Counted from the stretch's first letter, positions 13,153 through 25,154 are shown. The stretch: DNA of 36,439 nucleotides from Actinomycetota bacterium (GCA_003152275.1 PLZU01000054.1:5162-41600); one strand, 5' to 3'. Numbers and translations are program-made. The notes: generated from the letters alone by a model not told the origin.

Positions 13153-13272
13153 ATGGGGATCAATCCGAATACGCGCGCGTTCGTGCTCGCGACCGCGTTC
13201 ATGACGTCACTCGCGTTCGCGATCTTCGCGATGAACGTCATCGCGCTCTGTCTGTACTACTACGACAGCTAG
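13153..13272 (+). CDS. 39-aa single-span membrane peptide
   Basis: Starts MGINPNTRAF, followed by a single hydrophobic stretch of about 25 residues, and ends CLYYYDS. A strong purine-rich ggggaggg lies just before ATG 13153, which supports translation. It follows the flippase-like gene by 52 bp on the same strand, and its last four bases overlap the stop of the convergent protease. No family was recognised. It could be a small membrane regulator of a neighbour or an independent membrane peptide. Confidence 0.55.
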   Translation: MGINPNTRAFVLATAFMTSLAFAIFAMNVIALCLYYYDS

Positions 13273-14033
13273 CAGCTGCGGAGCGAGATACAGAGCTTCG
13301 CGATCGGTACCGCGAAGTTGAGGTTCTCGCCGCCGCCCGACACGAGGATGCCGACGACGCGACCCTGCTTGTCGACCGCGGGGCCGCCCGAGTTGCCGGG
13401 GTTCGCCGCGGCGTCTGTCTGGATCGTCTTCGAGGTCACGCGGCTGACGACACCCGTCGTAACCGTGCCCTCGAGCCCGTAGGGACTGCCGATCAGGAGT
13501 AGCTGGTCGCCGGCCTGCGGCTTCGGCGGGAACGGCTTTTGCCAGAGTGCGCGCGCGCCGGCGGGATGGCCGGAAACGCGAACGACCGCAAGATCGTCGT
13601 GCAGGTCGGTCCCGACGACCTCGCCGCTCCACGATCCGCCCTTGCGCATGACGGTCACGGCGTCACCGGTTCCCGACCCCGCGATCACGTGATTTGCGGT
13701 GACGAGATACGTGTTGCCGCCGGAGAACCAGCCGACGAAGCCGGCGCCGAGCTTTCGATCCGTCTCGATCGTGAACACACTCTTCAGGACGCGCGAGGCC
13801 AGCGGCGCGAATCCAGCGTCGCGCGAGCGCAGCTGCTTCTGCGCGGCCTCGACCGACACGGCCAGCGACTTGTTGTCCTTCGCCACCGCCTGTACCTGCG
13901 CGCTCAGCGTCGACACCTTGTTCATCGCCGCAGCGACGTCGCTCACGGCTTTCAGTGCGTGTGTGTGCGCATTCCAGGCGAACGCGAGCGATCCCGCGGC
14001 GATGAGCGCCGCGACGACCGAAACTGCGCGCAT
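13269..14033 (-). CDS. Membrane-anchored trypsin-like (HtrA-type, no PDZ) serine protease
   Basis: A 254-aa protein: an uncleaved-looking signal or anchor (residues 1-20), a heptad-like stalk (~25-70), then a trypsin-fold domain. The triad is His115 in TANHVIA, Asp147 in HDDLAVV and Ser215 in NPGNSGGP. HtrA proteases usually carry PDZ domains after the protease; here the chain ends at the protease domain, so substrate choice must come from the stalk or from partners. Its start overlaps by one base the stop of the secreted beta-rich gene, making it the last gene of the long Tad operon. A role in trimming or quality control of exported pilus parts is inferred from position alone. Confidence 0.85.
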   Translation of the reverse strand: MRAVSVVAALIAAGSLAFAWNAHTHALKAVSDVAAAMNKVSTLSAQVQAVAKDNKSLAVSVEAAQKQLRSRDAGFAPLASRVLKSVFTIETDRKLGAGFVGWFSGGNTYLVTANHVIAGSGTGDAVTVMRKGGSWSGEVVGTDLHDDLAVVRVSGHPAGARALWQKPFPPKPQAGDQLLLIGSPYGLEGTVTTGVVSRVTSKTIQTDAAANPGNSGGPAVDKQGRVVGILVSGGGENLNFAVPIAKLCISLRSC

Positions 14034-15016
14034 CAGGCTCCCGGAGCTTTGTACGTCGGCACGATCGAGATTCCCGCCGTCGTCGCCTTTTCGGTCGGGA
14101 CCGACTGGAACCCAAGACTCGCACTCATGTATGAACGAGTTCCCGGGGGAAGCGTCGCAAGCAGGAAGCCCGAGCCGCCCCCGACAACGTTGCCTGCCGA
14201 GTCGAAGAGCACGACGAAGACCTGCGCGCTTGTCAACGTGTCGGTTGGGTCGTCGTTGATCACGTCGCTGTCGACTTCACCGACCCAGTCGGGCTCGAAC
14301 GAGCTCGGGACGATGTGCACGTTCTCAACGGCGGGCTCGTGCGTCGCCGCCTTGACGTACGCGTCCGTCTGTACGACAACCTCGAGCTTGACGACAGGCG
14401 TCTGCGACGGCAGCGTTTCATAGCCGCCAAGATTGAAGGTTGACGCCGCGCGCACCGACCCGATCCGAGTCGTCGTGGTCTCAAGCGTGTGATTGTTCGA
14501 GTCGATGAAGTTGACCTGCACGCTCACGTTCTGCGCGTCCTCCGTGTTCGAGGGGTTGTCGAGGACGACGCCGTAGCTCACCGAGCTGCCGGAGCCGTAA
14601 CTGGCCGGCCGCTGGGAGTAGCCGGTGTTCACGATCGACAGTTTCGAGTGGCGGACGGTTCCCCCGACTACGGTGAAGATGCGCGACAGGCTGCCGGAGC
14701 GGCCGCACGCGACAACTGCACGAGCTGGGCCGGCGGGAGCAGCCTGCGCGAGGCTCCACTTCCACGAGGCGCTACCCGACTTGGCGCGGAGCATGCCGAG
14801 ACCGCTCTGGAGCGAGCCGTCGACGTACTTGACGCTGAGCGAGCAGCGCGCGCTGGACGGCTTCACGAGCACGGACACGGCAGCCGGCTGGCCTTGGTAC
14901 GCCCGCTGCGGCACGAAGCTGAAGCGAAGCGTCCACTGACTCGCGGCCGAAGCCGAACCGGCCGCGATCGCCGCGAAAGCGACGACGACGGCGATGAGAC
15001 CCCTGCGGTTGCTCAT
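14033..15016 (-). CDS. Secreted beta-rich protein (FxLYD/CARDB-like), Tad operon
   Basis: A 327-aa exported protein with a signal peptide (MSNRRGLIAVVV to SASAA). The N-terminal beta domain contains two cysteines about 50 residues apart (SARCSLSV and VVACGRSG), possibly a disulfide. A second domain has VSYGVVLDNPSNTEDAQNVSVQVNF, quoted here only as a landmark, and later FVVLFDSAGNVVGGG, the pattern of FxLYD/CARDB-like extracellular beta-sandwiches. ATG 15016 has GAGGAG upstream; longer readings are not coding. It sits 16 bp after the coiled-coil gene and overlaps the protease gene. It could be a pilus-associated or cell-surface adhesion protein; the function is unknown. Confidence 0.75.
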   Translation of the reverse strand: MSNRRGLIAVVVAFAAIAAGSASAASQWTLRFSFVPQRAYQGQPAAVSVLVKPSSARCSLSVKYVDGSLQSGLGMLRAKSGSASWKWSLAQAAPAGPARAVVACGRSGSLSRIFTVVGGTVRHSKLSIVNTGYSQRPASYGSGSSVSYGVVLDNPSNTEDAQNVSVQVNFIDSNNHTLETTTTRIGSVRAASTFNLGGYETLPSQTPVVKLEVVVQTDAYVKAATHEPAVENVHIVPSSFEPDWVGEVDSDVINDDPTDTLTSAQVFVVLFDSAGNVVGGGSGFLLATLPPGTRSYMSASLGFQSVPTEKATTAGISIVPTYKAPGA

Positions 15017-15032
15017 ATGCTCTCTCCTCATC

Positions 15033-16430
15033 TCAGGCCGCAGAGACCGTTTCCTCGGAACCGAGCTGCTTCGCCCACCACTCGCCTTCGTTGGCGAACT
15101 GGTTCTGCAACTGGCCGACATACGTCTGCAAGTGCGTCTCGCGCTGGCTCAGCCGCTCATCGCGGTCCTGGCCGTCGCGCTCCCGGTCTTCGAGGCGTTG
15201 CTCGCGGATCTCGTGCTCGGCGATGAATCCCGCTTCGCGGCGGTCGAGTCCAAGCTCCTTCTCGTCGAGCTCTTGAAGTCGCAGCTTGAACTGTTGCTCG
15301 AGCTCTTCGCTTCGCCTCTCCTTTTCCTCGAGGCGATGCCGCGACGCGTCGGCAAGCGCCTCGAGTTTCTCGAGCCGCGCCTCACGCTCCACGAGAGCGC
15401 GCTCCTGATCGTGTAATCGACGTGCGGCCAGCTCGTCAACCGGCCGTACGGCGGCCGGTTGAGCCGTCGCGAGCTCCTGCTCGGCACGGCGCAGAGACGC
15501 TTCGAGCCGGTGTAGCTCTGCCTCGTGCGCTGCCAGCTCGAGCTCGCGCTTGTCGAGATCGGCGTAGCGGGGCGCCTCTGCGGCGACGGCCGCGTTCTCC
15601 GACTCCAGCTCGAGCCCGCGCGCCTGGAGGCGTGCGGTCTCCTGTTCGAGCGCTGAGGCTTGCGATGCGACATCGTCACTTCGCGTGGAAAGCTCTGCCT
15701 GCGCGGCGGAAAGCGCGCGCTCGGTCTCCGACAGCGACTTGCGCTTGTCGTCGAGCGACTTTTCGGCGACGTCGACAGCGCGCTCCCGCTCGACAACTGC
15801 GAGGTTCGCGGCTTCCGCTTGCGCCTGCAACTCCTTGACGCGGGAGGCGGCCTCTGCCTCTGCCGTCGCGACAGCCTTTTCGCGGTCGGCAATCGTGGCG
15901 ACCTGCTGCGCGAGCTCGGCCGTCGCGGCTGCGCGCTTGTCGTCTGCCGATTTCAGCTCGTGCACCTTCAGCGCGACGGACTGCTCGCGCTCGGAAACGC
16001 GGACGGCCGTCGCGTCGATGTCGACGCGAAGCCGCTCGAGCTCCGCATGGCGCTCGTCGAATTCGGCCAGGCGCTCGTCGACTTGACGCTCGTGCTCGAC
16101 GAGAGCCCTTTCGCGCTCGTCGAGCTTCGAAGCTCGCTGTTCGAGCGCCGCGAGGCGCGTGCCGATCTCGTGCTCGAACTCGACTTCGCGCGCGGACGCG
16201 TCCAGCTGATCGCCGAGCGATTCTCGCAGCGCGCGCTCGCGCGAAAGCGAAGCCTCGAGCTCTGCGCGGAGCTCAGCAAGCCCGGCGTCTGCCGGCGGCG
16301 ACGGCGTCGCCAGGGCGACGGCTTCGCCGGGTGAGCGTGGGGACTCCTCGACCGCGTTGTGCGCTTCCATCTTTGCGCGCAGGCCGCTGCCGAAGCCTCC
16401 CTCCATCTGTTGGCGTTCCTCGGCCGCCAT
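15033..16430 (-). CDS. Long coiled-coil protein, Tad operon
   Basis: A 465-aa cytoplasmic-looking protein: no signal peptide, a low-complexity N-terminus (~1-50, proline and alanine), then an almost continuous heptad-rich coiled coil from ~50 to ~445 with many ERERAL, LDERE and REARL units, and a short C-terminal tail containing GEWWAKQLG. It contains no recognised enzyme domain. Its ATG directly follows the tadC stop, so it is made with the pilus machine. It may be a cytoplasmic scaffold that positions or gates the assembly platform, or a structural filament; both are inference. I know no standard Tad component of this kind. Confidence 0.75.
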   Translation of the reverse strand: MAAEERQQMEGGFGSGLRAKMEAHNAVEESPRSPGEAVALATPSPPADAGLAELRAELEASLSRERALRESLGDQLDASAREVEFEHEIGTRLAALEQRASKLDERERALVEHERQVDERLAEFDERHAELERLRVDIDATAVRVSEREQSVALKVHELKSADDKRAAATAELAQQVATIADREKAVATAEAEAASRVKELQAQAEAANLAVVERERAVDVAEKSLDDKRKSLSETERALSAAQAELSTRSDDVASQASALEQETARLQARGLELESENAAVAAEAPRYADLDKRELELAAHEAELHRLEASLRRAEQELATAQPAAVRPVDELAARRLHDQERALVEREARLEKLEALADASRHRLEEKERRSEELEQQFKLRLQELDEKELGLDRREAGFIAEHEIREQRLEDRERDGQDRDERLSQRETHLQTYVGQLQNQFANEGEWWAKQLGSEETVSAA

Positions 16431-24788: not shown

Positions 24789-25154
24789 GTGGCAACGCAC
24801 GGTTCGGGCGAACGAACGCTGGTGACGGCGGACGGCACAGTCGTCTGCCCCCGTTGCCGCATCGCGAAGGACCCGTGGTCGCGGATGCGCGGCCTGCTCG
24901 GGCGCAGGCAGCTCGACGACGGCGAAGGCATCCTGTTGCGCCCCGCCTCGTCCGTGCACACCTGGTTCATGCTGTTCCCGATCGACGTGGTCTTCCTCGA
25001 CCGCGATCTCTCCGTGCTGCGCGTGGTGCCCCGGCTCCGTCCGTGGCGCGCCGTCTGGCGGCGCGGGGCCGTGGCCGTGCTGGAGCTCGCCGCCGGCGAG
25101 TGCACGGCACGCGGTGTAGGAGTCGGCGACCGCCTCGATTGGGTGACTGCGTGA
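24789..25154 (+). CDS. DUF192 family protein
   Basis: A 121-aa protein of the DUF192 fold: MRGLLGRRQLDDGEGILLRP, the strongly conserved VHTWFMLFPIDVVFLDRD, VVPRLRPWR and the end ELAAGECTARGVGVGDRL (landmarks). A CPRC pair near residue 19 may bind a metal. The function of the family is unknown. GTG 24789 was chosen because caggag lies 9 bases upstream; earlier in-frame sequence is arginine-rich noise. It is coupled by GTGA overlap to the methyltransferase-like gene and lies between pilin genes that run the other way. Confidence 0.85.
   Translation: MATHGSGERTLVTADGTVVCPRCRIAKDPWSRMRGLLGRRQLDDGEGILLRPASSVHTWFMLFPIDVVFLDRDLSVLRVVPRLRPWRAVWRRGAVAVLELAAGECTARGVGVGDRLDWVTA

Follow-up and report, generated by a model that had tools for sequence, protein, structure and literature searches.

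We analysed a 36,439-nucleotide stretch of DNA from an uncultured soil bacterium of the Actinomycetota (GCA_003152275.1, PLZU01000054.1:5162-41600; hereafter the window). It is part of contig 91, a contig binned into a 3.25 Mb draft genome that is 86% complete. The window contains a Tad pilus operon on its minus strand, with three genes at its end that code for a coiled-coil protein, an exported beta protein and a trypsin-like protease. The first of these (16430-15033, minus strand), separated from tadC by a gap of 0, codes for a member of an undescribed protein family that is tied to one kind of Tad pilus and that carries an N-terminal motif, GFG[TS]GLR, similar to the peptide with which ParB binds ParA. 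We tentatively propose, as a possibility that we favour without considering it probable, that this protein is a lineage-specific Tad accessory, with a motif-bearing tail that docks on the ParA/MinD-like ATPase CpaE and a coil that scaffolds and positions the pilus machine. The two other genes are ordinary neighbours at this locus and do not belong to the conserved tad unit.

A coiled-coil family linked to one type of Tad pilus

The coiled-coil gene is found directly 3' of tadC and on the same strand in 34 of the 42 loci of this tad type in the window's bacterial family, in most cases with a gap of -4 to about 40 bases. Across 103 genomes, 42 have both the coiled coil and this tad type, two only the coiled coil, three only tad and 56 neither. 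Presence of both agrees in 98 of the 103 (p = 9e-23; 1e-6 at the genus level), in tests that ignore finer phylogeny and for a pair of genes in which operon linkage alone yields co-inheritance. These are mostly draft metagenome-assembled genomes in which an absence can be incompleteness, and two of the three tad-only genomes are 64-66% complete. An earlier note made from this DNA had linked the coiled coil with the pilus, and these loci and genomes bear it out. The strict DNA pattern E-x-GFG[TS]GLR matched in 40 of the 399 genomes of the class, 39 of them in the window's family, while the reversed pattern used as a control gave five matches. Of the 48 strict sites, 29 are 17-90 bases past tadC in the same orientation, and another 5 are no more than 7 kb from it. 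Among 84,980 species genomes scanned we found 36 coiled-coil homologues, adjoined by tadC in 26; they are labelled as uncultured Actinobacteria/Actinomycetota or Thermoleophilia, with one Gaiellaceae and one Acidobacteriota (possibly mis-assigned). Orphan homologues with the motif and tadC not alongside, some of them on short contigs, were seen at six loci (L187, L190, L191, L193, L194 and L243).

The window protein has 465 amino acids (a second ATG at 16406 would give 457). In the AlphaFold2 model residues 1-50 have low confidence, with a short helix at 16-21, and this tail of about 50 residues is presumably disordered. It is followed by helices at 51-280, 289-322 and 333-455, some 400 residues of helix in all. 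The putative docking motif, placed by the alignment and the model, reads GFGSGLRAKM in the window (residues 12-21; 16368..16397, minus strand). Its core F-G-[TS]-G-L-R is invariant in 33 of 33 homologues with a placeable start, mostly with E-x-G before it and A-[QK]-L after it, often then a basic run. Towards the other end, most homologues have a conserved C-terminal segment, TYVGQLQNQFANEGEWWAKQLG in the window (residues 436-457; 15060..15125, minus strand), with the pattern YVxQLQ...WWxKQLG, in which the alignment shows Q442 invariant and V438 nearly so. The homologues share 26-44% identity and range from 416 to 685 amino acids, and the family has no model of its own in Pfam or NCBIfam. Matches to SMC, FlbB, RNase Y and HmpF (NCBIfam/Pfam) were rejected as coiled-coil background, for HmpF as probable background. 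At one locus (L285/L100, G117:C34) the gene appears as two overlapping open reading frames (ORFs), as if frameshifted, which might be real or an assembly error.

Likeness to ParB and the CpaE proposal

The motif is in register with the ParA-binding peptide of ParB. The ParB of the window's own genome reads RRGLGRGLEVLV, and its L-G-R-G-L-E-V-L-V aligns with F-G-S-G-L-R-A-K-M of the coiled coil. Among 999 other proteins of these loci only 2 have the ParB-like pattern (hydrophobic-G-x-G-L-xxx-hydrophobic) in their first 48 residues. In Myxococcus xanthus the ParB motif (residues 11-19) binds at the ParA dimer interface, and its R13A mutant retains binding and loses stimulation (PMC12462528). PomX has a short N-terminal activating peptide together with a coiled-coil scaffold (PMC7993993). 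The ATPase of the window's operon is of the CpaE/TadZ type (21865-20672, minus strand; Pfam CbiA/AAA_31), has a deviant Walker A, SPKGGTGKT at 149-157, and matched ParA and MinD structures at 1e-18 to 1e-16. Its Caulobacter counterpart CpaE, a ParA/MinD-family protein, surrounds the motor CpaF and is required for secretin placement (PMC13170226). As looked for in a partner of such ATPases, the coiled coil has CpaE in the same operon and a motif tail, predicted to be disordered, on a scaffold domain.

What the data show directly is the gene order, the linkage, the conservation of the motif, the disorder and short helix of the modelled tail and the fold match to MshEN. We infer CpaE as the target of the motif, and likewise scaffolding, positioning and the link with cyclic di-GMP (c-di-GMP) taken up below. 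The disordered tail would present the GFG[TS]GLRAxL peptide to the CpaE of its own operon, and the coil of about 400 residues would gather or position the CpaE-TadA-TadB/C machine at its cellular site. By analogy with ParB, the tail would probably dock on CpaE rather than strongly stimulate ATP hydrolysis, because T or S replaces the central basic residue, and we do not class the coiled coil as an ATPase-activating protein.

Several points weigh against this reading. The resemblance to ParB covers about nine residues and was noticed after the fact, so that it is a lead and not a test. The central basic residue of ParB (R or K, at the position of M. xanthus R13) is T or S in all 33 homologues, with an Arg three positions later. 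In eight of the 42 loci the coiled coil does not directly follow tadC: in four it is 3 to 7 kb off on the other strand, in two it is on another contig, one locus is at a contig end with the coiled coil on another contig, and in one none was found. The sister families f2 to f4 have tad loci but no such coiled-coil gene, and the CpaE machine can therefore work without it. Setting the CpaE of loci that have the coiled coil against that of loci that lack it was uninformative, with only two negatives. Finally, that the coiled coil is tied to CpaE rather than to TadA, the membrane or another partner is something that we infer. For CpaE/TadZ, the ParA/MinD-like ATPase of Tad pili, no ParB-like partner is described in the open-licence literature searched. 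A coiled coil with a ParB-like peptide, present throughout the family and encoded in the operon, would be a concrete candidate, and one that offers a 10-residue target for testing.

The motif on MshEN-like proteins

The same motif follows an MshEN-like domain in six genomes (the window's own, G000:C87, and G035, G039 with two copies in one protein, G068, G076 and G116). Profile searches against PDB matched this domain to the c-di-GMP-binding domains of MshE (5e-15) and PilF (1e-13), and the Pfam search listed no MshEN model match for the motif-bearing proteins. The MshEN c-di-GMP domain is defined by tandem 24-residue motifs, RLGxx...LxxxLxxQ (PMC5013675). Such motifs are present at 10 and 39, 29 residues apart, in two of the copies (L183 and L186), the first one starting with PLG and not RLG, and the other copies have fewer strict matches to the tandem motif. 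The coiled coil is also present in five of the six genomes (p = 0.05; 0.09 at the genus level). The recurrence of the motif suggests that the coiled coil and the MshEN proteins share a binding partner and that the docking place of the coiled coil is also open to c-di-GMP receptors. One might go further and take GFG[TS]GLR as a shared Tad docking code in the window's bacterial family, with the coiled coil and the MshEN proteins competing for, or jointly occupying, one CpaE site, a ParB-like partner positioning the pilus and c-di-GMP gating it. We regard this extension as unlikely; if true, a shared peptide would link the second messenger c-di-GMP to Tad pili by a simple tag.

The MshEN-like carriers are located at L183 (6121-6951, in the window's own genome), L186, L188, L189, L192 and L241, and a coiled coil often follows. 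L188 has two motif copies in tandem. A looser motif pattern returned mostly noise, its new carriers being one MshEN protein (L241) and one orphan coiled coil (L243).

Alternative explanations

A somewhat unlikely alternative is that the coiled coil is a Tad accessory with a motif that binds TadA or the cytoplasmic domains of TadB/C, or both, regulating extension directly in the way HmpF acts on the type IV pilus motor. The gene does directly follow the platform genes, the MshEN domains on which the motif recurs are N-terminal parts of pilus motor ATPases, and cyanobacterial HmpF, a coiled coil with SMC-like similarity, regulates pili and interacts with PilT, the retraction motor (PMC12288463). 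Moreover, 10 of 28 members of the family weakly match the HmpF model (NCBIfam NF038350, best E 6.5e-5), but they do so alongside SMC and Rad50 models and probably at the level of coiled-coil background, and the motif resembles the ParA-binding peptide of ParB and not any known motor-binding peptide. The basic residues found after the motif in many homologues, and the short helix predicted at it, would also fit an amphipathic membrane-binding helix formed by the motif and its basic run (GLRAQLERRR), the coiled coil being then tethered to the membrane close to the base of the pilus, as a spacer or a curvature reader. This seems quite unlikely to us, however, since the invariance of GFG[TS]G exceeds what membrane binding needs, the window copy (AKMEAHNAVEE) has few basic residues and in the MshEN proteins the motif sits after a folded domain. 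The low identity and variable length of the homologues could mean that the coiled coil is just a passenger, a fast-evolving low-complexity protein held by the operon structure and with no pilus role. The invariant N-terminal motif and the conserved C-terminal segment make this improbable, as does a co-occurrence with tad that holds where the gene has moved 2-7 kb off or to another contig.

The earlier note had read the three genes as a pilus-linked module of scaffold, exported partner and processing protease. Two of its observations were confirmed: the genes are tightly packed behind tadC, with gaps of 0, 16 and -1 bases that imply co-transcription in this genome, and none belongs to the standard set of Tad components, with no Pfam match above the cut-off for either the coiled coil or the beta protein. 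In addition, this tad type is present in 12 of the 13 genomes with the beta protein (p = 1e-4, one genus making up half of them) and in 7 of the 9 with the protease (p = 0.03), and the beta protein could be linked with Tad in function. At the genus level, however, these values are 0.12 and 0.09, and co-occurrence of beta protein and protease is not significant (p = 0.09). The check that the note had proposed, co-occurrence of the trio after tadC, went against it. Among the 20 loci in which tadC, the coiled coil and the gene after it are all visible, the window alone has a beta or protease gene within three genes of the coiled coil; elsewhere the following genes vary (sigma-factor-like, membrane proteins, subtilisin-like), the nearest relative found having about 59% TadC identity. 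Most relatives of the beta protein, and likewise of the protease, are away from tad, among unrelated neighbours, which for two of the three genes is the finding that the note itself had named as refuting its module. The trio as a conserved cassette was rejected on these 20 loci and we consider a module very unlikely; close packing in a single genome does not suffice to make three genes a module.

The beta protein and the protease

In the window's genome both genes are probably co-transcribed with tad; no promoter- or terminator-like site was found between the trio genes on the minus strand, in a scan that is weak at this G+C. They would be exported proteins added to the end of the operon in the window's lineage.

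The beta gene (15016-14033, minus strand; 327 amino acids) starts 16 bases after the coiled coil, at 15016, with a ribosome-binding-site-like AGGAGAG, and a 362-amino-acid ORF from 15121 is less likely. A Sec signal was seen by eye and export is predicted. The AlphaFold model gives about three beta-sandwich modules (mean pLDDT, the model's confidence score, 87), in place of the two domains described in the earlier note, and the first one has two conserved cysteines, C58 and C104. A fold search returned only generic immunoglobulin-, macroglobulin- or arrestin-like sandwiches at low TM values. Relatives were found in 22 of the 129 genomes of the order; the scan of the 84,980-species contig set gave no match for this protein, and its distribution is that of the order-level search only. 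Among the neighbourhoods fetched no relative was next to tad, the genes beside them being unrelated. In a single genome (G100) one contig carries both beta and tadC close together, with about 3.5 kb and unrelated genes separating them. Several relatives have a sugar-transferase-like gene downstream. At one locus (L038, G022:C102) a relative is found about 0.5 kb behind the gene of a PilB-like ATPase from a different kind of pilus or secretion system (34% to the window's TadA), and pilus association of the family may take more than one form. At another (L050, G121:C74), the only other beta-protease neighbourhood seen, a distant relative is encoded divergently, at a distance of 67 bp, from a trypsin-like protein that is longer and has a multi-pass region at its N-terminus.

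The protease gene (14033-13269, minus strand) overlaps the beta gene by one base at TGATG. It codes for a PDZ-less trypsin/HtrA-type serine protease, as the earlier note had described it: Trypsin_2 matches at 5.7e-22, the HtrA-type AlgW is matched in PDB at 2.7e-17, the triad H115/D147/S215 is intact, there is no PDZ match and the chain stops just past the protease domain. Ahead of this domain are an N-terminal signal or anchor and a short stalk. The anchoring that the note had assumed is likely, with a cleaved signal as the alternative. Orthologues (E below 1e-40) are present in 10 genomes including the window's own. None of six orthologue neighbourhoods was beside tad or beta, their contigs containing neither. 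At three of these six (L198, L199 and L201, from three genera) the orthologue is divergent from an ABC transporter ATPase gene, which may be its usual context.

The remainder of the operon

All the other genes of the operon are also on the minus strand, and TadA, TadB/TadC, CpaE/TadZ, RcpC/CpaB, TadE/G and the Flp pilin are found together, by Pfam and gene order. The Flp pilin (24476-24285) and TadE (23994-23593) were recognised from the sequence only, as was a second Flp-type pilin (25970-25791), upstream of the operon and apart from the first. TadG is at 23596-22688. They are followed by RcpC/CpaB (22656-21862; Pfam RcpC 2.4e-11) and, after CpaE, by the TadA/CpaF motor ATPase (20667-19213; T2SSE 1.6e-67), a TadB platform protein fused to an N-terminal secreted VWA domain (19216-17345; VWA 1.5e-10, T2SSF 2e-16) and the TadC platform protein (17339-16431; T2SSF 4e-17). 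In this tad type TadB generally has the size of the fusion (about 585-660 amino acids), in four families alike, and in the other tad type TadB has 315-340 amino acids, without room for a VWA domain. A gene that is DUF192-like by resemblance (24885-25154, plus strand) is also found beside tad genes in several loci (among them L113 and L293).

Comparison with known systems

The coiled coil shares with ParB/Spo0J a disordered N-terminal tail, a 9-residue hydrophobic-G-x-G-L-xxx-hydrophobic motif forming a short helix and a co-encoded ParA/MinD-like ATPase, but it has T or S for the central R or K and, where ParB has its ParB/Srx and DNA-binding domains, a coiled coil. PomX of M. xanthus, likened here by layout and not by sequence, also combines a short conserved N-terminal peptide with a long coiled-coil scaffold and a ParA/MinD ATPase partner, although its role is in the positioning of cell division and its peptide depends on basic residues (PMC7993993). 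HmpF, likened here by its build, resembles the coiled coil as a cytoplasmic SMC-like coil that occurs in one lineage only and goes with a pilus of the type IV family, but its pilus is of another class and its model matches probably at coiled-coil background. The motif carriers resemble the MshEN c-di-GMP receptors in their MshEN-like domain, with the tandem 24-residue pair at 29-residue spacing in two genomes; in this pair the first Arg of the tandem is a Pro, c-di-GMP binding by the carriers is putative and the domain is located outside the window. With HtrA/DegP the window protease shares the trypsin-like domain and intact triad but not the PDZ, and it is a local neighbour only. The operon as a whole resembles the Tad/Flp (type IVc) pilus of Caulobacter, with CpaE, CpaF/TadA, TadB/C, CpaB/RcpC and Flp in common, to which the window adds the coiled-coil gene after tadC and the VWA domain fused to TadB.

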